Positions 2 through 42,369 of a stretch of DNA of 42,370 bases are shown in pieces (positions within the stretch are counted from its first letter, which is position 1; each line of letters starts with the position of its first letter). The notes beneath the pieces were generated by a model that ran no database searches, was not told the origin of the DNA, and saw only the letters and a program-made list of their open reading frames with translations. Source of the stretch: a virus; the IMG/VR virus record IMGVR_UViG_3300020183_005653, positions 1 through 42,370 of that record, one strand, 5' to 3'. The position numbers and the translations under genes are program-made.

Positions 2-583
2 GCTCAAGGTGCAACGGGCGCGCAGGGTGCAACGGGCGCGCAGGGTCCACAAGGAGACGCTGGTGCTACGGGTGCACAGGGGGCAACCGGAGCAACGGGG
101 GCACAGGGACCGCAAGGTGCGACAGGTGCCCAAGGGGCAACCGGCGCAACTGGTGCACAAGGACCACAGGGTGATGTGGGACCACAGGGATCAACGGGTG
201 CTCAGGGTGCGACGGGAGCAACTGGTGCGCAAGGACCTCAGGGTTCAACCGGCCCTCAGGGCGCTCAGGGCGATGCAGGACCCCAAGGAGCCACGGGTCC
301 TCAGGGAGCAGCAGGGCCACAGGGTCCGCAAGGGGCAACGGGCTCACAGGGAGCCACGGGAGCCACGGGAGCCACGGGTGATACTGGTGCGACTGGGGCA
401 ACTGGTCCGCAAGGTGCACAGGGGGCGACAGGGCCACAGGGAGACACAGGGCCACAGGGCGCAACTGGAGCAACGGGAGCGACCGGTCCACAGGGTTCTA
501 CTGGAGCAACCGGACCACAAGGCGCGCAAGGCGCAACTGGAAGTCAGGGCGCGCAGGGGGTTCAGGGGGCGACAGGACCCACA
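2..583 (+). repeat. Collagen-type Gly-X-Y coding repeat
   Basis: This is a degenerate tandem repeat with a 9-base period and higher-order units of 27 to 45 bases, built from ggtgcaacgggc-like and ggaccacaggg-like blocks. It encodes about 194 residues of perfect Gly-X-Y triplets in the fibre frame. Such DNA is prone to slippage and recombination, so triplet number probably varies between related phages. Open frames on the opposite strand here follow from the three-base periodicity and are not genes. Confidence 0.9.
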
Positions 584-2416
584 GGGTCGATAGATGACCT
601 ATCAGATGTTGCTATAACAACGCCAGCAACTGGTGATTTCCTTAAATACAACGCAGGAACCTGGGTCAATGACCCAATCAATTTAGGGACTGACACTGTT
701 GGAAACTATGTAGCCGATGTTACGGCGGGAACTGGAATTAGTGTTTCCCATACCCCTGGCGAAGCATCAAGCGCTGCCGTATCTCTTTCGAATACAAGTA
801 TTTCACTTAACGGAACATCCATTTCATTGACGAGCGCTGGTTCGCAAACAATTACTGCAGCAGCCGGAACACTTACCGGAACATCACTTAATTCAACGGT
901 TGTTTCCTCAAGCCTCACCTCGGTGGGGACAATTGGTACGGGAGTCTGGCAAGGAACCGCGGTTGGCGTAGCATATGGCGGAACTGGCGCCACAGATACC
1001 GCCACCGCGCGCAGCAACCTGGGTCTTGCTATTGGCACCAATGTTCAGGCCTACGATGCAGAACTGGCAGCGCTGGCCGGGTTAACAAGCGCAGCCGATG
1101 CTTTGCCATATTTCACTGGCTCTGGAACTGCCGCAACGACTACGCTATCTTCATTCGGACGTTCGTTAATAGACGATGCCGACGCGAGCACTGCACGCAC
1201 AACACTTGGTCTTGCTATTGGAACAGATGTTCAGGCATATGACGCCGACCTTTCGGCTATCGCCGCCCTAACCGGCTCTTCTGGTTTCCTTAAAACGAAT
1301 GGTTCTGAAACGTGGACCATTGACACGGCTACGTATCTCACCTCATCAACTGGCGTTACGACCGTCAATGGAAGTAGTGGTGCGATTACGAATGTCGCCC
1401 TGACTACCGGAACACTAGGGCAATTTGCCGCCACGACATCATCAGCACTGGCTGGGGTTATATCTGACGAAACCGGTTCCGGCGCACTGGTATTTGGAAC
1501 ATCACCAGCAATTACAACCAGTTTGACCACGGGTAGTTCTTCGTTTGACCTCATCAACACAACGGCAACTACGGTCAACTTCGCGGGAGCCGCAACATCG
1601 CTAACGATTGGCGCTACAAGTGGAACAACTACCGTTCGTAATGACTTGACTGTTACCGGAAATATGACCGTCAATGGTACGACAACCACAATTAACGCAA
1701 CAACAATAACTGTTGACGATAAAAATATTGAACTCGGTTCCGTTGCCAGTCCAGATAACACAACTGCCGATGGCGGTGGAATCACACTAAAGGGCCTTAC
1801 AGACAAGACGCTCACGTGGGTTTCGGCAACAGCAGCGTGGACCTCGTCGGAGGACTTTAATCTCGTTTCTGGCAAAGTTTATGAGATAAATGGAACTACC
1901 GTACTAAGTTCCTCAACGCTTGGTTCTGGAGTTACTGCCTCAAGTTTGACTTCGGTTGGAACAATCACCAGCGGTACGTGGTCAGGTTCGTTTGGAGCAG
2001 TCTCCGGAGCGAACCTAACGAACCTGACAGCCGGGAACCTTTCTGGGACAATTCCCGCAGCAGTAATGGGCAACTCGTTCCAGGTTACTGGAGAGTCTGG
2101 CGACAATACAGTTACTGCAAACAGCACCGCAACTGTTGTCGACTCAATGACGGCAAGCGGCGTTCTGGCAATTGAGTACACCCTTCGCTTGACGCAGGGC
2201 AGCAAGCGTCGATTGTCAAAAATTCTAGTTAACCCCAATAGCGCGGATACTGATGTTGACTTTGTTGAGTATGCGGTTATTGAAACTGGTGGCTCAATTA
2301 GTGGTGTTTCCGTCACTGCAGATTACTCAAACCCGAACTTTAGGCTGCTAATATCTGCCAGTGATGCAGCAACAACTAACGTAACTGCAAAACTTCAGAA
2401 GTTTGTGATGGTATAG
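2..2416 (+). CDS. Collagen-like tail fibre protein (5' end outside window)
   Basis: The reading frame is open from the first bases, so the N-terminus lies outside the window; 804 residues are visible. About the first 195 residues are uninterrupted Gly-X-Y triplets dominated by GPQ, GAT, GAQ and GST, the pattern of a collagen triple helix. Then follow Ser/Thr/Gly-rich beta-type fibre modules: two copies of an 'AIGT-VQAYDA-L' segment (near 1027 and 1213) and a '[12 protein letters not shown]' / 'DDKNIELG' module common in large tail fibres. The C-terminus is a compact domain after about 2080. It is probably a trimeric receptor-binding or side fibre. The next gene starts two bases after its stop, so it heads a fibre operon. 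Pro occupies only the X position and Thr is common in Y, which matters for modification by the oxygenase and glycosyltransferase downstream. The family call is firm; the exact fibre role is inferred. Confidence 0.85.
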
Positions 2417-14798: not shown

Positions 14799-15976
14799 GT
14801 CTTTCGGGTAAAATTAACGAAGAAAAAAGCAAAGAAGCCAAAGCCAAAACATTGGGAGCAATCGCTGATTTACTCGCATCCAAGAATATCGACATTGACG
14901 AAGTCGGGGATATCAAAAGAATATCCATTTACCAGTCAATGCTCAAAGACGAGAACGGCGATGCCCAGGTAGTCGATCTCGCCGCCATTCAAATTTCCCC
15001 CAAATGGGAATCCGGGCCCGAGTGGCAGATAATTCAGCGTGGTCCCGAGATTAAGCTCCCGAAAAATACGTCATCACCACGCACATCAGACTCATTCAAG
15101 ACATGCGTCGTTGTTCCCGATATCCAGTTCGGTTATTACCGCAACAAAGAGAGCTGCCTGGAGCCAACCCACGACGAAGAGGCAATTAGTGTTTCGCTGA
15201 ACGTCATCAAGTACCTAAAGCCAGAGTTGATTGTTTGTGTTGGTGACAACCTCGATCTTCCAGAAATGGGGAAGTACGTCACCTATCCGAGCTATGCGCT
15301 TACCACGCAGGCGACGATTGACCGTGCGACAACTTTTTGCGCGGAAATGCGCCACGCTGCCCCCAATGCGCAGATCGTCTGGCTTGCCGGAAATCATGAA
15401 GAACGCATGCCCAAGTACATCGTTCAGAATGCTGGTGCCGCATATGGTCTTCGAAAGGGCAATACGCCCGACTCTTGGCCCGTTATGTCCGTTCCTTACC
15501 TGTGCCGAATGGACGAGTTCGGCGTAGAGTACAGACCAGGATATCCGGCATCAGACATTTGGGTCAACCAGAAGCTTCGCATTATTCATGGCGACCGTGT
15601 CAAGAGCTCTGGATCCACGGCTCACGTTTATCTGAACGCAGAGAAAAGCAGCGTGATTTACGGACACATACACCGTATCGAATGTGCGTTCAAGACACGC
15701 GAAGATTGGGATGGGCCACGGACAATCATGGCCGCGTCCCCTGGGTGTTTAGCACGGATCGATGGGGCGATCCCCAGCACCAAGGGCGGCGTTGATTTGG
15801 ACGGACGACCACTGACGCGCCACGAGAACTGGCAGCAGGGTCTGGGGATTGTAATGTACGAAGACAGCGGTGATCATAAGTTCTCATACGAATGCATGCC
15901 TATCTACTCTGGCTGGGGTATGTTCCGTGGCAAAGAGTTTATTTCATCTCAGCGGCAGGCAAATCAGGTCTCCTGA
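14795..15976 (+). CDS. Calcineurin-like metallophosphoesterase
   Basis: 393 residues from the ATG overlapping the previous stop (ATGA) with GGGGAGA upstream. The N-terminal 100 residues are a charged helical region and linker. The catalytic domain shows the family metal motifs in order: D109-I-Q111 in 'VVPDIQFG' (usually DxH; here Gln), G150-D-x-x-D154 in 'GDNLDLP', G199-N-H-E202, H265-G-D267 and G290-H-I-H293. Such phage enzymes hydrolyse phosphodiesters or phosphomonoesters; many sit near replication or terminase genes. The His-to-Gln change in motif I may alter activity but occurs in some members. Its target is unknown. Confidence 0.85.
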   Translation: MSLSGKINEEKSKEAKAKTLGAIADLLASKNIDIDEVGDIKRISIYQSMLKDENGDAQVVDLAAIQISPKWESGPEWQIIQRGPEIKLPKNTSSPRTSDSFKTCVVVPDIQFGYYRNKESCLEPTHDEEAISVSLNVIKYLKPELIVCVGDNLDLPEMGKYVTYPSYALTTQATIDRATTFCAEMRHAAPNAQIVWLAGNHEERMPKYIVQNAGAAYGLRKGNTPDSWPVMSVPYLCRMDEFGVEYRPGYPASDIWVNQKLRIIHGDRVKSSGSTAHVYLNAEKSSVIYGHIHRIECAFKTREDWDGPRTIMAASPGCLARIDGAIPSTKGGVDLDGRPLTRHENWQQGLGIVMYEDSGDHKFSYECMPIYSGWGMFRGKEFISSQRQANQVS

Positions 15977-15977
15977 A

Positions 15978-16640
15978 ATGACAACCATTGTCGGCATATG
16001 TGGCGACGGTTACGCCGTTCTGTGTGCCGACAGTCGTATATCGACAGTTGATCCTGATGGTTACACATCGAGCATTCAAACCCTCCCATCGTCAATGCCA
16101 AAGATTGCCTCCGTTGGCTCGTACCATATTGGGGTCTCCGGCGATGTGAGGGCCATCAACATCGTTACATACGCATTTCAGCCACCAATGCCACCCCCGT
16201 CACTGCGCGGTAAAAAGTTAGATGAGTTTTTTACTACGAAATTCATACCCGCCCTTCGGTCGTGCTACGAGACAAATGGCTACTCCTACGTGCCCCCGGA
16301 CTCAAACATTTCGCGTTCAATCGAAGCTGGATCTACCCTCTTGGTTGCGATAAATCGCGTCATCTATCAGGTGGATAATGATTACTCGTGGTTTTCTGAC
16401 AGTGGTGGAGTTTATGCCATTGGTACGGGGGCCGCGTATGCATTAGGTGCGCTAGGGATTCTGTGCCCCAAACTACAAACACTCCAGCAGGCAAAAAAGA
16501 ACGCAATTAAAGCGATTGCGGTTGCGGCAAAAAATGACCCCCATAGCGGTTATCCATACAATGTTGTTTTTCAGGAAGCGTCAATGGCCACCCCATCGAC
16601 ACGGACAAAGGTAAATGGAAAACGAACAAAATCAGAATGA
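15978..16640 (+). CDS. HslV/proteasome-like Ntn hydrolase
   Basis: 220 residues. Removal of Met1 would expose Thr1: 'TTIVGICGDGYAVLCADSR' aligns without gaps to the N-terminus of HslV and proteasome beta subunits, with the nucleophile Thr1 and Asp17 in register. A Lys at position 41 of the mature chain ('SSMPKIASV') may stand for catalytic Lys33, offset by a longer loop. 'HIGVSGD' and 'YAIGTGAAYALGALG' match the core strands and the Gly-rich helix start, and 'AIKAIAVAAKND' matches the following helix. The fold should form oligomeric rings with inward threonines. No HslU, ClpX-like or Mpa-like ATPase is nearby, so it would borrow a host unfoldase or act alone. Only one base separates it from the phosphoesterase. 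Confidence 0.75.
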   Translation: MTTIVGICGDGYAVLCADSRISTVDPDGYTSSIQTLPSSMPKIASVGSYHIGVSGDVRAINIVTYAFQPPMPPPSLRGKKLDEFFTTKFIPALRSCYETNGYSYVPPDSNISRSIEAGSTLLVAINRVIYQVDNDYSWFSDSGGVYAIGTGAAYALGALGILCPKLQTLQQAKKNAIKAIAVAAKNDPHSGYPYNVVFQEASMATPSTRTKVNGKRTKSE

Positions 16641-20855: not shown

Positions 20856-21113
20856 TTATTGGTCGAGAAATTTTTCTAAAAGTTCAACATATTGGCCGAA
20901 CTTACCCGTTGCGGTGAACGATTCACCGTCTTCAGACACTCCGCAGCTCATGGAAAATGAGAATACCAAAAAATCTGCGATATCTTGACATGTCTCCATT
21001 TGTGCGTCTTTTTCAGCATCACTCAGGTTACCCAAGTCCAGTGTTGCGTACGCAAAAAGAGCTCCAGCAATGTTGTTTGCCACTGTTAAATTCGCTTCAA
21101 AGTTCTCGCTCAT
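20856..21113 (-). CDS. Small acidic protein of unknown function
   Basis: 85 residues, helical, acidic, no membrane segment. 'ENFEANLTVANNIAGALFAYATLDLGNLSDAE' is an amphipathic stretch, and the C-terminus is 'GQYVELLEKFLDQ'. No family recognised. It is transcribed divergently from ssb, about 190 bases away, and is separated from the lysozyme-fold pair by about 150 bases with a new promoter, so it is likely a single-gene transcript. Confidence 0.55.
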   Translation of the reverse strand: MSENFEANLTVANNIAGALFAYATLDLGNLSDAEKDAQMETCQDIADFLVFSFSMSCGVSEDGESFTATGKFGQYVELLEKFLDQ

Positions 21114-21158
21114 ACTCCGACTTTAACACTACGGCGACCGATGTCAAGTCGTGCCAAA

Positions 21159-21202
21159 TTATGTAATGTATGAATTGTCGCTACACTAGTCTCGTATATT
21201 TT
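21159..21202 (+). promoter_or_regulatory. Candidate ssb promoter region
   Basis: Two overlapping readings: TTATGT (21159-21164), a 17-base spacer, TACACT (21182-21187); or TTGTCG (21175-21180), 16 bases, TATTTT (21197-21202). Both precede an AGGAGG at 21216-21221 that is too far from ssb to serve it. The leader is about 100 bases. Confidence 0.4.
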
Positions 21203-21266
21203 CAGTGATTCCGCTAGGAGGACTTGCTCCAACGTTTTTGAGTAAGTAATGTTCCGACTCATCGAG

Positions 21267-21282
21267 TTGGGGCGCGCCCCAA
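21267..21282. promoter_or_regulatory. 16-base perfect palindrome in the ssb leader
   Basis: TTGGGGCGCGCCCCAA lies 20 bases before the ssb ATG, inside the leader. As RNA it can form a 6-bp GC-rich hairpin with a CGCG loop; as DNA it is an uninterrupted palindrome. It could be an operator, or a translational control site bound by SSB itself. Confidence 0.45.
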
Positions 21283-21302
21283 AAACACAGAAAGAGATAA
21301 CA

Positions 21303-21749
21303 ATGAGTCAATCACCCGCGACGATCATCGGCAACGTGACCGATGACCCGAAGCTCACGTTTACTGCGGACGGCAAGCCACGTCTGGCATTTTCCGTAGC
21401 AGTTAATCACTATTGGACCGATGCGTCTGGCGACAAGCAGGAGAAGGTTTCCTATATCAACGTCATCGCGTGGCGCTACCTGGCCGACGACTCAGCCAAC
21501 GTTCTGGAAAAGGGCGTAGGCATCATCGTTACCGGTCGCCTGGAGCAGCGCTCCTGGGAGGACAAAGAAACCGGAGCAAAGCGGTCTATCGTCGAGTTGG
21601 TCGCAGACGCCATAGGCGTTCAGACGCGCTCGATTGATTCCTTTGAGCGCAAGCGTCGCAGCAGCCCGGACGGCCAGCAAACCAAGAAGGCCTCAGCGCC
21701 ACGCCAGGCTGCTCGCCAGGTCATCGAAGAGGACAGCGAGCCGTTCTGA
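21303..21749 (+). CDS. ssb: Single-stranded DNA-binding protein
   Basis: 148 residues from the ATG with AAAGAGA upstream; an upstream in-frame ATG (21249) would add 18 residues encoded by the palindrome and is less likely. OB-fold landmarks are in order: 'TIIGNVTDDPKLTFTADGKP', 'AFSVAVNHYW', 'SYINVIAWR', 'VLEKGVGIIVTGRLEQRSWE', 'SIVELVADAIG'. Then a basic/Gln-rich linker and the acidic tip 'EEDSEPF', the conserved SSB C-terminus that recruits replication proteins. It protects ssDNA at the fork. A strong terminator follows. Confidence 0.93.
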   Translation: MSQSPATIIGNVTDDPKLTFTADGKPRLAFSVAVNHYWTDASGDKQEKVSYINVIAWRYLADDSANVLEKGVGIIVTGRLEQRSWEDKETGAKRSIVELVADAIGVQTRSIDSFERKRRSSPDGQQTKKASAPRQAARQVIEEDSEPF

Positions 21750-21800
21750 TCTCCACCACACATCGATAATTCCCCTCAGAGAGAAGGAATCGATAGCAGG

Positions 21801-21824
21801 GCCCGCCAGAAATGGCGGGCTTTT
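21801..21824 (+). terminator. Rho-independent terminator after ssb
   Basis: An 8-bp GC-rich stem (GCCCGCCA / TGGCGGGC) with a GAAA tetraloop is followed directly by TTTTG. It lies 51 bases after the ssb stop, isolating ssb from the primase operon. Confidence 0.88.
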
Positions 21825-21867
21825 GCTTGTCCGAAATAGGCTCCACCAGTCGTGTATTCTTTGCCCA

Positions 21868-22323
21868 ATGAGCGGACGTCGTCAAGCACCAAAGCGTGCC
21901 ATCATCACGATTAACAAAATCGGCTCATGGGGCTCGGTGAGATATGAACATCAATTGGAGTGCGGACATTCCGAACTATTGCTGCGGGCATCATCGGCCA
22001 AGCGTATCGCGTGCTCAGTTTGCCTGTCTTTTAAAACCTCAAACCAGCAAATCAAAAATTCTGATGGACGAGAAGCAGAGCTCGCTAATGCTCCGGCCAT
22101 TCCATCGAAATACTTTGATGCGCGACTTGATTTCGATGACTCCATCAGCGAAGATGAAATTCTGGTGCGACGTGTTGCTGCGGAGATTGCCGCACTGCTC
22201 GGCATTCCGGTAGACGCAGTCAGCGTCAATACGGACGCTGCATCAGGCCGATTGACGATCACATCAGCATACATATTTCTTTCAGCCAAAGACATAGCAC
22301 GACTTACGAACGTGAGGGGATGA
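21868..22323 (+). CDS. Zinc-ribbon phage protein of unknown function
   Basis: 151 residues. The N-terminal half has a likely zinc site: 'LECGHSELL' then 'RIACSVCLSF' (CxH + CxxC). The C-terminal half ('DEILVRRVAAEIAALLGIP', 'TITSAYIFLSAKDIARL') is an alpha/beta fold of unknown family. No ribosome site was seen. It leads an operon with the second WhiB and the primase-helicase. Confidence 0.65.
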   Translation: MSGRRQAPKRAIITINKIGSWGSVRYEHQLECGHSELLLRASSAKRIACSVCLSFKTSNQQIKNSDGREAELANAPAIPSKYFDARLDFDDSISEDEILVRRVAAEIAALLGIPVDAVSVNTDAASGRLTITSAYIFLSAKDIARLTNVRG

Positions 22324-29235: not shown

Positions 29236-29308
29236 GAGCCAGTAACTCAGTGGTTAGAGTAGCATTCTTATAAAATGCAGGTCGCGGGTTCAATTCCCGT
29301 CTGGCTCA
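29236..29308 (+). tRNA. tRNA-Ile, anticodon UAU
   Basis: A full cloverleaf by eye: a 7-bp acceptor stem GAGCCAG/CTGGCTC, D-stem ACTC/GAGT, anticodon stem GCATT/AATGC with loop CTTATAA (anticodon TAT), a 5-base variable loop, T-stem GCGGG/CCCGT with loop TTCAATT, and discriminator A. CCA is not encoded. UAU reads AUA directly, a codon bacterial hosts usually read with lysidine-modified CAU tRNA and use rarely when GC-rich. It likely supports AUA-containing phage genes. Confidence 0.9.
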
Positions 29309-29331
29309 CTATTATCTTGTAAAATTTGAGC

Positions 29332-35457: not shown

Positions 35458-38400
35458 CTATAAAACTCTCAAAACGCGCTCTTTAAACATTTCAATAAGC
35501 GATCCGGTTGTAAATACATCGCTATCAAACATTCTCAATATGAAGTTGGGCGATAGCCTCCACCAGTATGGTGGTGTCATCATCGCACTGCGATAATCCA
35601 CTGCACTGTGCGGCACAGCATTTTCTATGAACCAATTCGGTTGCCCTTGGTGAATCCCAACACTGACGCCGCCTTCATACTCTGGGTAATTTTCTGGAAC
35701 TTCAACTTTGGCCAAATACGCTACTCGCCTATCGACCGCATCCGCAGAGTAATGACGACCACCAGGGAAGATACGAGTCTCATAGGTGTCTGATCCATTG
35801 TGTTGTCGCCCAACATCACCTAGTGCTTTAACAACATCACTGCTATTTGAATTATCTGCCGCCAGATTGACAACTTTTCCACTTTTCATTGGGATTACCA
35901 GCGGCTCGCCTGGCTTGGGCGTCAGGTAGGTGTCGACGGCATATAGGTTGTCAAGTGATCCAGGATTTGCGTCCAATACGTCACGTAGTGGTACGATAAT
36001 TACGTAAGTATCTCCATCAACAGTCCTCATCTCATGCGGCTGAGCAAGATGATTTAGCGCGAAGTGGATTGTCTCTCTCTGCACAACGTCAACGAGCCTT
36101 CCCGTGATTGGGTCAATCATTGGCTTGCCCGTATTTCGGTCGATTGGCGAATATTCAGACACAGGACGTAGAACAATGTTCCCGCCTTCATCAAATGTCG
36201 GCTGATAAGACGTTTGGTGTACCAAAAAAAGATCGTCTATTCCTGCTGGACGGAAAATGGCTTCGCCGTTGGCGGCGCTGCCCGCATTCACCAAATAATC
36301 GGCACCATCATATTTCCAGTTAAAATCTTGTGGATCATCGCCCATGAACGATAGCAGATTTAATTTCTCTTTCTTTCGTTCCTGGATCATTTTCTCACGA
36401 GCAACTGAAGCTAGACGCTCAAGCTCCTGCATCGCCTCGACGTCACCGCGTGATGCCGAATACAGTAAGGCTGCAACCAGACCAAGATTTTTATTAGTGC
36501 CGTCAGATTCGATCCCCTGTCCCTGCATGGCGTCAAAAAATATCCTTGCATACGATTGTCCCAGTGAGGAATCTGCGCCGTGTCCAGTTATCAGGTATGG
36601 GTTGACCGGAATAATCTCAACGTCTTCGTCTACGAAGTCTGGATCAAACCTCCCAAGACCCTTGGTGCCAAATGCGATACGTTTGCCGTCAACATCATAA
36701 ACCGGCAATGAATACTGAGAAGTGGCGTCCCTAGTCGGGTCAGGGACCCCACCCTCATTGGGATACCATTGGCTAAGTTGCGCAAATTCAAGGGAGTCCA
36801 GTACTTCGATTGGCTTGTTGCTGACTTTGCCAATGCGCGTCTGTGACTTACTACCACTGTTGACTTCGTTCCCTTTCGTACTCCTGAGGCGCCGTAATCC
36901 GCCGAGACCATCAGTCACGGAGCGAACAACATCTAGCGGTAGATCAAACTCTCTACTGAGCGATGCCATGGTGTCGGTATCTCGTAAATTATTTTGCACA
37001 TGATCTGCTAAATCCTGTTCTGCGCCTTGGGCACGATTGACTTTTCGCCCAGATGCTTTTGCGCCAGAAGCAGCACGCAAACTTCTAAGACCACCGAGTT
37101 TCTCAGACTCATATTTAACAAGATTTTCCGAGAGACCGAATTCATCAGCCAGCGAAGCAATAGTATCTTCTTCTCTTAGACTAGTAGTCAAGCGTTCACG
37201 CAATGCGCTAGTTTGCGGTCCGGACGGACGCGACGCTGTTGATTCACTTACACCAGAGTTCAATCTTGTTCTATTGCGAAGCTTTCTCAGACCACCGAGT
37301 TTATTAACTAGATAAATTGCCCCACCAAACGTTACACCGAATTCACTAGCAAGCGATTCTATTGTGTCGGTATCACGCAAGGAGCTGGTCAGATGCTGTT
37401 CAAGCTTTTGTATTCCCTCATCTGCTGTCCGATTACTATTTGGCACAATGCCCCTATCGGAACGCAGCTTACTAATTCCACCCATCCTATTAATAATCGA
37501 CCGAGCCCTTCCCACCGGCATATTGAATCTTTTGGCCAAAGATGAGGCAGTATCATCGGAACTTAATCCTTCTAATAGATAGTTTTCGAGCTCCGATGTT
37601 CCAGTCAAACGCTGCTGACCACGATTTCCTATCTTTATTCCACGATTCCGCCTAAGTTTTGGAAGGCCGCCCATTCGTAGAACTATGTTTTGTAATTCCT
37701 GTGGCGAAATATTGAACCTCTCAACAATCGTTTCAATTGTATCTTCGCCTGTTAAATCGTTTGCCAGATATTTTTCGATGTCTGTTCTCGAAGTACGCGA
37801 CTTACTGCCGGGACCGATTTCAATTGGCGAATCGACCATGTCGTCGTCTGGGCGCGACTCAACGTCCAAGACCGTACGCGCGATACTGTCCAACCCCTTC
37901 TTTCTTGCAGCAATCGAAACAGCATGACTAATCAAGTCTTGGGCCAAATTAGATATTTCATCATTATCTTCGTCCAAGTCAATAAAGTTGTCGTCAATCG
38001 TAACGTAGTATCCAACGTCACTAATCAGATTATTAATTTGATATACCGTGTCCAGTAGCGACTTTGTACTTGGTGCCAAAATCAACATTTCTCTAAGTGC
38101 CCTTGTGTCAACATTCAGCATTTCTAAAATGTTGCCCATTTCATCATCTGTAAAGTTAAATTGCTCAGATATGCGGCTGCGGTTCCCAGTCATTTCAAGC
38201 CCGATGATTTTCTTTGCAAGTGAAGACGCTTGTCTGGCGATATCGGCTGTTCGATGATTCTCAATCATTAAGCCAAGCGACTTAGTAATCTCCCTGATCT
38301 CGGCATCTATGCCTTCGCCTATATCCTCAAGCTGCGAGTGTCGAGCATCATTTTCTTCAAACATTTCGTCATCGATATCTGAAAGCTTTGATTCGAGATA

Positions 38401-41400
38401 TCTAAGTTGATCTTCAACGTTTTTTCGTGCCCGAATCAGGTCCTTAATCCTTTCGATCACCAGATCGCCACGACCACGACCCACGTCGGACATAGTTCGC
38501 GCAGCTACGGAAGCAATACGCGAACTCGTTTGACTTCTAGAACCACTGACCGAAGAATCCGTTCGGTTTTGCTTTGCAGACATCTCCGCAATAAGGCGTT
38601 TAAATGGAGACCGAGGAAATGGTCTGGCCAGATTGTTTATTGGATCCTGAACAACAATCTCACCGCGCCTACGCGACCGCTCTTCACTCTGCTGGGCAGC
38701 AATATCCCTTTGAGCTGCGTTTAACTCAAAATCAGCAGTCGTTTTTTCCAAACTAGCTTCGTCTTCGTTTTTCTGGCGCTCGCCTTCTGGGCGCAGGTTC
38801 ACCCCTCTGGCCCTCAGCACGTGGTGGGGGGCGGTTTCGGCCACTACGTCGGATAACAAAGAGTCAGAAGATGCGTTCAGTGGAATCGTTCTGCTGGTCT
38901 TGGACTTACTTCCATTAATCGGTCGTCCATTTTCATCACTTGGATCAATCAGTTCGATGAGTTCAGAACTTGAGACCCTTGCGTACAGCGATGGGCTATC
39001 AAAAAAAAGGTCACCGTCGTCAATCTCCTCACGGATATCTTCAAGGTCTGAATCGGGCAAATCGGATTTCGATGCTGTATCGACCTGGAGATTAAGAAGA
39101 CGTGTCCTACTAAATAATAGATCAATCAGCATTCTTTTTTTATCTTTTTCGCTAATATCAGGATTATGGTAAACCCTGCGCGCAGCACCAACCATAGCCG
39201 CCCATTCGCCATGTCTATCGAAGCTACGACCAGTTGCCAGATGTTCGAATACGTCATGTGTATTGAACATAGGATCAAACATGCGCGCTAAAACCATGTC
39301 AAGAATATTTTGTGGTATCTGCCATTCAATCTTCCCCGTCAGGAAGATCGCTATTGGACTTACTGCGTTGGACTTCCCATCTTCAGTTAACAGGCCCCCG
39401 GCTGGAAATAGTTCATCAAACAATGAGCCATAGTTGAACCCAAGCCTTGCCCCTGAAGCATATTTCCAAAACGACAGGGCCCACTCATGTGAGTCATCAT
39501 CTGGATCTCTATCCCCGAATTCCCGCAATTTTTCTATCATTGCCCGTATTTGATCCACTGAAGGTGCTTCTACCTTGGACCAATTTCTGTCCATTGGAAT
39601 ACCTGTTGAATACAGGGGGTGTGGATCAAAGGTAATCATCGGTATTCCATTGGAGGAAATAGATACCTTAAACGATTTGAGCATTTTTAGAGCCTGCTCC
39701 GTTGAAAGACCAGGATGAGTCCACTCCGGAACTTCTCCCCGCTCAAGCATGTTGATTACTGATCGAATAGTGTCCAGGCTTTCCGGCAAGGCATCTGAAA
39801 GAATTTTCTTCTGTTCGGGAGTAAGGTCTGTTCGATCTAGGTCAAATGCGGCTTCTTGGCCTATTAATTCAATCGGACCGCTGGGAGCACCAGACCCGTT
39901 AAGGTGATGTCGTGCGGTTTCTGCTGATATCGCATCAATCTGCTCGGCGCTAAAGTCGCGCATTGGGGTGGAGCGACCGGTGGTTGATTTGCTTCCAACT
40001 ATTGATGATTCTTCATCACGAGGTGGGGAAAAATATCGAAGCAGTTCCTCCCCAGTGAATGCTGCAGATACGTAACCGCGTGAGGGTTTGTTGGATTCAG
40101 AAGTTAGTTGCCTCAATCTGTCGAATACGTCTCGTATTCTTCTGCGTGCTAATATTTTGCGGTCGCGTCGTTCCGGGCTGGATTCTTCGGCATCATATGG
40201 TCCGAATGCTTTAGTAAATTCCGTATCGAGTTCCGTTAAAACTAGACCTATCACGTTTGGCAGATAAGACAAGATCGCAGCAGCATGTGCATTTTTTTCT
40301 CCTTCAGTGGCATCTGGCCCAGGATCAATAGAGTCAAATAGGCCGAGAGCAGCAGCCCACTCCCCGTGTCTATCAAATCCTCGACCCACCGCAAGATGCT
40401 CTGTGGAGTCGTGAATACCCAGAGTTCCGGCTTCTGGATACAGGATTGAGGTTATAATCATGGAAATTACGGAATCGGTGCTAAATATGTTTCCTATCTC
40501 TGGGGCATAATCTAAAATCAAACCCATGTTTTTGCTCTTTAGTGCATTTTCACTTCGTATTTTACGCGTCTCTTCTGCTGATAGAGACTCACCGCCCTCT
40601 ATCGGGAAAGCCTCTTGCATTGTTTCAAGATATTTTTTAATACGTACCGTAGGCAAAGTGCTCATAGCGATTTTGCTTTCATTTTCTCCTGAGGGGAAAA
40701 AATCCTCATCAGGACTCATGAACGAAGTACGATTGTCTATTTCGTCAAGAAAGCTCTCCCACACCTCAATACCCGGTACCAAAACACCTCCATAATCACG
40801 ACCAGGCGGAACAAAGCGAGAGAGCACTGGATGGGGCATGAATGAAATCATGGGTGTCCCATTTGGGGAAATGGAAAGTGATATGGACTCAAACATCTGA
40901 ATTGCTTCTTCACGCGAAATACCGGGCGTATCCATCTCGATATTTGGATCCTTCAGTAAGCGCAGCAGGGCTTCAACCCTCTTGATGTCCCCCATTAACT
41001 GATTACTAGCTATTGCTTTTTCCGCATCCGTCAGTTCAAGGTCGGTAAAAATTTTCTCTATGTCGCGACCAATAACCGGATAGGAGTCGGTTCTTGATTT
41101 AGAACCATCAATATGGTGATTTGGAATTTCATCGACTATCTGTTCAATGTCTGCATTGTTTATCTTATTTATGCTTTTGATTTGTTTTGTCGTTGACTTG
41201 CTGCCATTGATGTACTGACCATCTTCATCGCGTGGATCAATAAAGTCAAGAAATTCGTCTAATGTCCCAAAGGTTCTCATTAATGTTTCTGTATTCATTC
41301 CCCTTAGTCCACTACGCAGGCGTTCGGCTTCTTCCTGGATCGGAGCCTTAGCCTCCTTTAGGAGATCTGGATCATCTATACCGAGATCGTTAATAGATGA

Positions 41401-42369
41401 TTCAACCCACTTATTGATTTGCATACCGAGAAAGGCACTCAAATTACTAAAAGCAAAATCATGGACTACTGCTGACATTATTTCTTCATCGGTTGGGTTA
41501 AATAATGTCGATGGATTATTTTTATCTGAGGCCATGAATCTGCGAAGAATTGCGGTAAATGTACGTTCGCTAACTCCGAACTCCTCAATCAACTCATCTT
41601 TTGTTTTTGTAGTCTTTGGATTGTTGATCAGGTAACTAAATAGTTCGCGAGCTCCTTCTAGCTGTCGCCGCATTTCGTTCATTCGTGCCAAGCCAGCAGC
41701 CCACTCCCCGTTTCTATCAAATCCTCGACCGGTTGAAAGATGATCCTGGCCATCATGCTTCCCCTGTCCGCCATAGAACGAACGTATAAGTAATGCGATG
41801 GGGTTATCCGCATATAGGTCTAAAACGGCATAGTCGACACCAAGAGAAATGGCAAGATCGTAAAGTCTTTCAGTATCCTTTGGGTCGACATTCCCACCAA
41901 TGGATGGAGATATTAAGTCGGCTAGCGAGCTAACAAAGTTCGTATATTCTTCCTGTTCTAGGGTTTCACGTACCGGAATATTCTCTGATTCTGCTATTTT
42001 TTGCAAAAGCTCATCGATCTGATTAATATCCAGTATCTCCACACTTTGATAGTCCCTGTCACCCGAATATTTTGCATAGTACGGATGTTTCTTAAACGAG
42101 ATCATCGGAATTCCGTTTTGCGAAATAGCGAGAGATATTGACTCCAACATTTCGATGGCTTCAGACTTTGTCAAATACGGGAAAATATCTTCAGGAACCG
42201 AATCCTGTTTCAGGGCCTTCAATAATTGTGTTGCCATCTTGACGCTCAATCTCAATTGATCTCGGGCAACCTTCTTTTCGTCATCGGTCATCTCTAGGTC
42301 ATCGAGGATCTCATCAACGGGGCGCTCTAATACCCGGTAGCGATCTGTCCTAGACCGCGAGCCAGCCAT
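35458..42369 (-). CDS. Giant repetitive phage protein, possible polyprotein (start uncertain, at window edge)
   Basis: 2303 residues to the ATG at 42369, one base from the window end; the true start may lie outside, because residues 3-8 already form a GSRSRT signature like the internal ones. Parts: three homologous modules (about 1-390, 422-790, 825-1153), each with 'ISxNGxPMI-F--HP' and the motif 'H--GR-FDR-GEWAA'; linker blocks with GS[KR]SxT and HH motifs; a coiled-coil-rich part (about 1280-1515); five HTH-like repeats (about 1527-1833); and a C-terminal domain (about 1845-2303) with 'VHQT', 'IHFALNHLAQPHE' and 'GGVSVGIHQGQPNWF'. No signal peptide or membrane helix. It could be a virion-injected or head-maturation polyprotein; I cannot assign a family. 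Confidence 0.8.
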   Translation of the reverse strand: MAGSRSRTDRYRVLERPVDEILDDLEMTDDEKKVARDQLRLSVKMATQLLKALKQDSVPEDIFPYLTKSEAIEMLESISLAISQNGIPMISFKKHPYYAKYSGDRDYQSVEILDINQIDELLQKIAESENIPVRETLEQEEYTNFVSSLADLISPSIGGNVDPKDTERLYDLAISLGVDYAVLDLYADNPIALLIRSFYGGQGKHDGQDHLSTGRGFDRNGEWAAGLARMNEMRRQLEGARELFSYLINNPKTTKTKDELIEEFGVSERTFTAILRRFMASDKNNPSTLFNPTDEEIMSAVVHDFAFSNLSAFLGMQINKWVESSINDLGIDDPDLLKEAKAPIQEEAERLRSGLRGMNTETLMRTFGTLDEFLDFIDPRDEDGQYINGSKSTTKQIKSINKINNADIEQIVDEIPNHHIDGSKSRTDSYPVIGRDIEKIFTDLELTDAEKAIASNQLMGDIKRVEALLRLLKDPNIEMDTPGISREEAIQMFESISLSISPNGTPMISFMPHPVLSRFVPPGRDYGGVLVPGIEVWESFLDEIDNRTSFMSPDEDFFPSGENESKIAMSTLPTVRIKKYLETMQEAFPIEGGESLSAEETRKIRSENALKSKNMGLILDYAPEIGNIFSTDSVISMIITSILYPEAGTLGIHDSTEHLAVGRGFDRHGEWAAALGLFDSIDPGPDATEGEKNAHAAAILSYLPNVIGLVLTELDTEFTKAFGPYDAEESSPERRDRKILARRRIRDVFDRLRQLTSESNKPSRGYVSAAFTGEELLRYFSPPRDEESSIVGSKSTTGRSTPMRDFSAEQIDAISAETARHHLNGSGAPSGPIELIGQEAAFDLDRTDLTPEQKKILSDALPESLDTIRSVINMLERGEVPEWTHPGLSTEQALKMLKSFKVSISSNGIPMITFDPHPLYSTGIPMDRNWSKVEAPSVDQIRAMIEKLREFGDRDPDDDSHEWALSFWKYASGARLGFNYGSLFDELFPAGGLLTEDGKSNAVSPIAIFLTGKIEWQIPQNILDMVLARMFDPMFNTHDVFEHLATGRSFDRHGEWAAMVGAARRVYHNPDISEKDKKRMLIDLLFSRTRLLNLQVDTASKSDLPDSDLEDIREEIDDGDLFFDSPSLYARVSSSELIELIDPSDENGRPINGSKSKTSRTIPLNASSDSLLSDVVAETAPHHVLRARGVNLRPEGERQKNEDEASLEKTTADFELNAAQRDIAAQQSEERSRRRGEIVVQDPINNLARPFPRSPFKRLIAEMSAKQNRTDSSVSGSRSQTSSRIASVAARTMSDVGRGRGDLVIERIKDLIRARKNVEDQLRYLESKLSDIDDEMFEENDARHSQLEDIGEGIDAEIREITKSLGLMIENHRTADIARQASSLAKKIIGLEMTGNRSRISEQFNFTDDEMGNILEMLNVDTRALREMLILAPSTKSLLDTVYQINNLISDVGYYVTIDDNFIDLDEDNDEISNLAQDLISHAVSIAARKKGLDSIARTVLDVESRPDDDMVDSPIEIGPGSKSRTSRTDIEKYLANDLTGEDTIETIVERFNISPQELQNIVLRMGGLPKLRRNRGIKIGNRGQQRLTGTSELENYLLEGLSSDDTASSLAKRFNMPVGRARSIINRMGGISKLRSDRGIVPNSNRTADEGIQKLEQHLTSSLRDTDTIESLASEFGVTFGGAIYLVNKLGGLRKLRNRTRLNSGVSESTASRPSGPQTSALRERLTTSLREEDTIASLADEFGLSENLVKYESEKLGGLRSLRAASGAKASGRKVNRAQGAEQDLADHVQNNLRDTDTMASLSREFDLPLDVVRSVTDGLGGLRRLRSTKGNEVNSGSKSQTRIGKVSNKPIEVLDSLEFAQLSQWYPNEGGVPDPTRDATSQYSLPVYDVDGKRIAFGTKGLGRFDPDFVDEDVEIIPVNPYLITGHGADSSLGQSYARIFFDAMQGQGIESDGTNKNLGLVAALLYSASRGDVEAMQELERLASVAREKMIQERKKEKLNLLSFMGDDPQDFNWKYDGADYLVNAGSAANGEAIFRPAGIDDLFLVHQTSYQPTFDEGGNIVLRPVSEYSPIDRNTGKPMIDPITGRLVDVVQRETIHFALNHLAQPHEMRTVDGDTYVIIVPLRDVLDANPGSLDNLYAVDTYLTPKPGEPLVIPMKSGKVVNLAADNSNSSDVVKALGDVGRQHNGSDTYETRIFPGGRHYSADAVDRRVAYLAKVEVPENYPEYEGGVSVGIHQGQPNWFIENAVPHSAVDYRSAMMTPPYWWRLSPNFILRMFDSDVFTTGSLIEMFKERVLRVL
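36873..37791 (-). repeat. Five HTH-like repeats in the giant protein
   Basis: About five units averaging 61 residues, each with the form 'L---L--[DE]DT--SLA--F-[LMV]' then 'LGGL--LR'. Examples: 'LRDTDTIESLASEFGVTFG' and 'LREEDTIASLADEFGLSEN', each closing with 'LGGLRKLR' or 'LGGLRSLR'. The helix-turn-helix spacing resembles sigma/transposase-type HTHs, so a five-fold DNA-binding array is plausible. Confidence 0.7.
38913..39996 (-). repeat. Giant-protein module C
   Basis: Third module (residues about 792-1153), ending at GSKSKT (38896-38913). Core: 'SISSNGIPMITFDPHP' and 'HDVFEHLATGRSFDRHGEWA' (around 39198-39250). Divergence between modules is well beyond DNA-level similarity, so the triplication is old. 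Confidence 0.75.
39996..41106 (-). repeat. Giant-protein module B
   Basis: Second module (residues about 422-792), from GSKSRT (41089-41106) to GSKSTT (39979-39996). Core: 'SISPNGTPMISFMPHP' at nearly the same distance from the opening signature as in module A (81 versus 82 residues) and 'HDSTEHLAVGRGFDRHGEWA' (around 40358-40408). Confidence 0.75.
41205..42369 (-). repeat. Giant-protein module A
   Basis: First homologous module (residues about 1-389), between signatures GSRSRT (42346-42363) and GSKSTT (41188-41205). Core: 'AISQNGIPMISFKKHP' (NG at residues 85-86) and 'HDGQDHLSTGRGFDRNGEWA' (around 41699-41750). Confidence 0.75.

Follow-up and report, generated by a model that had tools for sequence, protein, structure and literature searches.

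The giant gene of the window and its junction tags

The window analysed here, a whole stretch of 42,370 nucleotides, comes from an IMG/VR virus contig of metagenomic origin in which open reading frames (ORFs) were called mechanically. At its far end lies a giant ORF whose N-terminus is cut by the window end. The full gene is found on the near-identical contig L003 (4646–12019), where it encodes 2,457 residues and has a GTG start after GGAGG. The true start is thus 154 residues upstream of the window ORF start, and the added residues include MVYVDITGAIDGDGDGIVFD (from L003). The ORF, the short tags repeated along it and the units that they delimit are listed below in order of residue number.

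35458–42369, minus strand: giant ORF, 2,303 residues in the window
41206–42369, minus strand: unit M1, an HDxxxHxxxGRxFDRxGEW module with the phrog_3170-type motif, residues 1–388
42346–42363, minus strand: tag 1, GSRSRT, residue 3
41188–41205, minus strand: tag 2, GSKSTT, residue 389; opens a 33-residue spacer with HH at 418
41089–41106, minus strand: tag 3, GSKSRT, residue 422; closes the spacer and opens module 2
39997–41106, minus strand: unit M2, the same HDxxxHxxxGRxFDRxGEW module, residues 422–791
39979–39996, minus strand: tag 4, GSKSTT, residue 792; opens the second spacer, HH at 821
38914–39897, minus strand: unit M3, the same HDxxxHxxxGRxFDRxGEW module, residues 825–1152
38896–38913, minus strand: tag 5, GSKSKT, residue 1153; opens the third spacer, HH at 1182; low-confidence flank in the AlphaFold2 model
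38527–38544, minus strand: tag 6, GSRSQT, residue 1276
37810–38544, minus strand: helical/coil domain unit, residues 1276–1520; kept in L010 behind the same tag
37792–37809, minus strand: tag 7, GSKSRT, residue 1521
36856–37809, minus strand: unit of five helix-turn-helix (HTH)-like repeats, residues 1521–1838; weak, partial Pfam LysM match
36838–36855, minus strand: tag 8, GSKSQT, residue 1839; L038 has LSSG at the homologous junction
35461–36855, minus strand: C-terminal domain unit, residues 1839–2303; homologous units in LSSG and GFAS giants and in another G003 giant

All eight GS[KR]SxT copies listed in the earlier note on this DNA are present at exactly the residues it gave (3, 389, 422, 792, 1153, 1276, 1521 and 1839), where 0.008 copies would be expected by chance from composition. 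Its HH pairs at residues 418, 821 and 1182, each 29 positions after the tags at 389, 792 and 1153, are likewise exact. The three linkers that contain them are not independent as it had supposed: they are paralogous 33-residue spacers, one after each duplicated module. HH was rejected as a signal of its own, since its fixed spacing reflects duplication of a single spacer. In relatives, the spacer recurs, often with a tag on both sides, with or without HH.

The three modules have the core HDxxxHxxxGRxFDRxGEWAA in common. The module core also occurs in phrog_3170 and in the stand-alone gp103 of Bixzunavirus, which is encoded between capsid and tail genes. The helical unit, the five HTH-like repeats and the C-terminal domain are each opened by a tag. 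Structure prediction of the junctions, which the earlier note had recommended, was carried out with AlphaFold2 for module 3 and its flanks; the core stretches are ordered (pLDDT 83–95), and the tags and linkers are of low confidence.

Searches of Pfam, PHROGs and NCBIfam with the window giant returned only weak or partial matches; those in Pfam are weak HTH and LysM matches, with no recognised effector or peptidase domain among them. A LysM identity was rejected, as the Pfam match covers 16 residues. Fold searches with the module and with the C-terminal domain gave no match below an E value of 0.001. The best ADP-ribosyl-type fold match of the C-terminal domain is Tpt1 (E 0.56), a lead only. 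Neither the window giant nor one GFAS giant had a match in annotated phages, at default or strict limits.

Lineage tags in related giants

A profile built from the three modules matched 45 viral loci, and forty-odd related viral contigs encode giants of 1,600–4,250 residues with the FDRxGEW module. A search for other GSKSxT giants with alignment of their junctions, suggested in the earlier note, was fruitful: GSKSxT is kept in the nearest relatives, and L010 and L020 carry 11 and 8 GS[KR]SxT tags, respectively. Most other giants have a different junction tetrapeptide, namely, G[FL]AS, LSSG, STRS, SSRS or GLSS. In relatives, one tag is repeated up to 12 times per giant versus ∼0.2 in shuffles, for a tag set first spotted by eye and selected post hoc; when spaced 4-mers were searched for without guidance, these tags again came out as the top word in most giants. 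Three related contigs together have 48 GS[KR]S tags, and position 6, which was not part of the search, is T in all 48. Conservation is limited to about six residues, which fits the footprint that a protease site or a short linear motif might leave.

Counted genome-wide, GS[KR]S occurs 30 times in G003, G[FL]AS 28 times in G006, STRS 35 times in G014, and LSSG 23 and 17 times in G007 and G005, respectively. The tags of other lineages number 0–4 per genome, and tags are nearly absent from small ORFs. The 17–35 copies of the lineage tag on each relative's contig are spread over several giant ORFs, including a tape-measure-like protein; in each of its five orthologues, a variable linker around residues 585–680 contains the tag of the respective lineage. 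The linkers are rich in S, T, R and K, and modules duplicate and move between giants. In many tagged giants, a leader motif of the DxDGDGxVxxxTPFxRP type precedes the first tag.

The earlier note had tied its reading to homologues keeping the signature along with the domains. Most of them lose GSKSxT but have a different tag at the same junctions; L039 and L051 have the module and two leader motifs and no repeated junction tag. No repeated tag was found in the stretches examined of DSL-LC01, Gordonia DalanDe, Chidiebere, GMA6 and one Bixzunavirus.

Replacement of the tag is best seen between G003 and G014, whose MCP and TerL are 88.6% and 84% identical and whose tags are GSKS and STRS, respectively. 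Five of the seven alignable tags lie within 15 residues of a tag of the other genome, four of them at offset 0 (0.077 expected for each); since three of the five mapped tags match one and the same G014 tag, the number of independent sites is smaller than five. At some homologous junctions, the other genome's tag is absent. The window giant provides a further case in its C-terminal domain, which begins GSKSQT-RIGKV where L038 has LSSG-RIGTV. Most genes of the window are also present in G004, and the core genes include many with ∼45–80% identity to those of LSSG and GFAS phages. These comparisons indicate that the tag copies within a genome have changed together.

The codon strings of the tag copies are nearly all different, with Ser alternating between TCN and AGY. 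A DNA-repeat origin was rejected because the codons differ from copy to copy, and the synonymous variation indicates that selection on the tag is at the protein level.

The relatives' giants contain RNase_T, NUDIX, DUF3626, pentapeptide-repeat, weak PI3K-like and HTH domains. All Pfam domains checked sit between tags, and none spans one. In Faith1/Moostard, an entire Lclasvirinae gene of 239–240 aa is the counterpart of the tag-bounded unit 1950–2203 of one G003 giant. A single-domain relative of the module occurs in Micromonosporaceae ORFs of 219–249 aa (L108–L123; HDVFGHAASGRGFDRHGEEAAW...ETRGQNC), one of which was searched against Pfam and gave no match.

Head operon, prohead protease and candidate peptidases

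Five genomes include a head region, and in all of them the portal gene is followed by the S78 prohead protease gene, the tagged giants and the MCP gene. Most tagged giants lie between the portal/S78 genes and the MCP gene, and most genomes have one further giant outside this stretch. The window giant is of the latter type; the head operon of the window phage is absent from the contig, and its context is known from relatives. S78 forms an ORF of its own (474–491 aa) in G014 and G003; G005–G007 have it fused to a tagged chain. The earlier note had proposed looking for a phage protease gene beside the giant; relatives do have such a gene there, a candidate tag cutter at most.

S78 was our first candidate for the tag cutter and was downgraded. 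In the five genomes, the lineage tag is missing from the MCP, whose N-terminal site is EFK[SA]L without exception, and the S78 domain is nearly identical across all tag lineages. S78 is therefore unlikely to have switched specificity together with the tags.

In most lineages, an invariant EFK[SA]L or SFKA[ML] site occurs in MCP, in S78 and in some head-operon proteins (among others, G003, 20901–22214 and 64520–65992; G006, 47443–48870 and 67285–73599). It is likely a prohead protease site, the FK[AS]L site being defined by a short pattern. The DSL-LC01 MCP as query had no match in the relatives; PF05065 did match.

HExxH motifs occur almost only in tagged giants (G003, G005, G006, G007, G009 and G014); the window giant has none. 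As judged from these motifs, the predicted embedded peptidases are better candidates for the tag reader than S78. Another candidate peptidase is encoded in the window (15870–16640, plus strand), where an HslV/proteasome-like Ntn peptidase gene was recognised by eye (MTTIVGICGDGYAVLCADSR). Homologues are present in G004, G005, G006, G007 and G009, and DSL-LC01 annotates an HslV gene.

Proposed processing of the giants and its alternatives

We propose that the giants are head-associated polyproteins of polyvalent-type cargo that are cut at lineage-specific tags, and we give this reading a probability of about 0.58. The earlier note had placed the tags at junctions of separable units and had offered processing or docking as their role; all findings fit this, with cleavage as the step that we infer. 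The giants would belong to an actinophage-like virus clade known from metagenomes, and each would be a chain of cargo units that fold independently, some of them polyvalent-type enzymes and DNA-binding modules. Disordered linkers would join the units and carry one short tag fixed within the phage lineage (here GS[KR]SxT). The tag would have a trans-acting reader protein that evolves in step with it. Most probably this reader would be a protease and would split the chain into its units, either before or after these are delivered into the host. The putative metallopeptidases with HExxH motifs that are embedded in the giants are candidates for it, as is, with lower likelihood, the S78 prohead protease. 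The N-terminal leader with its DxDGDG...TPFxRP motif may target the chain to the head. Such a co-evolving, trans-acting reader would explain why the tag is shared, why it is swapped and why it is constrained. More tentatively, at somewhat below even odds, several cargo chains per DNA phage may be cut at one tag by a co-evolving protease, making the tag a lineage-private processing code.

A special case of the same explanation, whose confidence overlaps with that given above, is that S78 itself cuts the tags with a broad specificity, x-x-[KRAS]-[SG]. S78 adjoins or is fused to tagged giants, a K/R/A-S step is common to the tags and the conserved FK[AS]L sites, and there is a precedent in SPN3US gp245, which has 14 sites in nine proteins (PMC10052503). 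However, a conserved broad enzyme with an invariant capsid site would not predict lineage-specific fixation of all copies, and we regard this version as unlikely.

Alternatively, the tags could be docking or packaging motifs on an uncut chain, and a structural receptor, evolving along with the tag, would hold the units in the head or pass them through the tail. A short, lineage-fixed motif in several giants and the tape-measure-like protein would fit a binding site equally well, and the tagless MCP and the constancy of the S78 domain agree with this. We nevertheless favour cutting, because the tags are placed at junctions outside every checked Pfam domain, are sometimes paired round the 30-residue spacer and stand on chains that also carry predicted peptidases, all of which is more natural for cutting sites; docking seems to us rather improbable. 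That the tags have no reader at all and are mere flexible linkers, or were left behind when modules were shuffled from one giant gene to another, suits the linker composition and the mobility of the modules but is very doubtful, given that nearly all synonymous sites differ among copies, that constraint covers about six residues only and that different tetrapeptides are fixed per lineage while the flanks vary.

Proposed polyproteins of this kind resemble several known systems. Polyvalent proteins, which occur in phages and conjugative elements, are giant multidomain chains with effector-like enzymes and embedded metallopeptidases, and release of their domains has been proposed; P1 DdrB undergoes processing ahead of its packaging, and an operational analogy to RNA virus polyproteins has already been drawn (Iyer et al. 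2017, PMC5512222). The tagged giants of relatives combine many different domains, and their HExxH motifs, if they mark active peptidases, would match the peptidase proposal for polyvalent proteins; the window giant has neither a recognised effector domain nor a peptidase domain. The observation that bears on delivery into the host cell is the place of tagged giants in the head operon. In contrast, the parts of that paper considered here do not describe a short tag that recurs at every junction of all giants in a genome and is exchanged between lineages.

Prohead-protease maturation, as in SPN3US (gp245), T4 and phiKZ, relies on one short motif in many virion proteins and on N-terminal leaders (PMC10052503). 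A short shared motif and leaders are also found here, with the protease gene in the same operon. Whereas the cuts in SPN3US mostly remove N-terminal propeptides, here up to 11 tags separate units inside the chain. The head-operon location expected of prohead-protease substrates is found in five genomes, but giants of the window type lie outside that stretch, and the MCP does not share the lineage tag.

With RNA virus polyproteins, the giants have in common independently folding units between repeated short motifs, and the junction motif does lie at the boundaries of separable units. Here, however, the virus is a DNA phage with several separate giants per genome, and the cutting is presumed. 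Mycobacterium phage Astraea gp103 (phrog_3170/Bixzunavirus gp103) shares the HDxxxHxxxGRxFDRHGE core and is encoded in the virion structural region, but it is a stand-alone protein of 433 aa without a tag.

Head proteins with a common protease motif (SPN3US, PMC10052503) and polyvalent proteins are thus already known. A limited open-access set of literature on phage polyproteins contained no description of such a tag, shared by a genome's giants at their junctions and exchanged wholesale between close relatives. If our reading is correct, the tags would allow uncharacterised giant phage proteins to be divided into functional units, would make it possible to predict the proteins that go into the virion and could be used to trace the enzyme responsible for reading each of them. 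The concerted replacement of dozens of sites per genome would be a rare natural experiment in protease–substrate co-evolution, and whether polyvalent proteins are polyproteins would come within reach of one mass-spectrometry experiment.

Some further features were observed in the window and its relatives. A TAREQFEML-PW segment at the N-terminus is common to Bixzunavirus gp102 and gp103 (L006, 12522–15702) and may be a leader for head targeting. A tail-sheath-like gene was recognised by eye in this clade, which is therefore probably contractile-tailed. The window also contains a collagen-like GxxGxx ORF of tail-fibre type (2–2416, plus strand), open at the window start, and a tRNA-Ile gene with anticodon TAT (29236–29309, plus strand).
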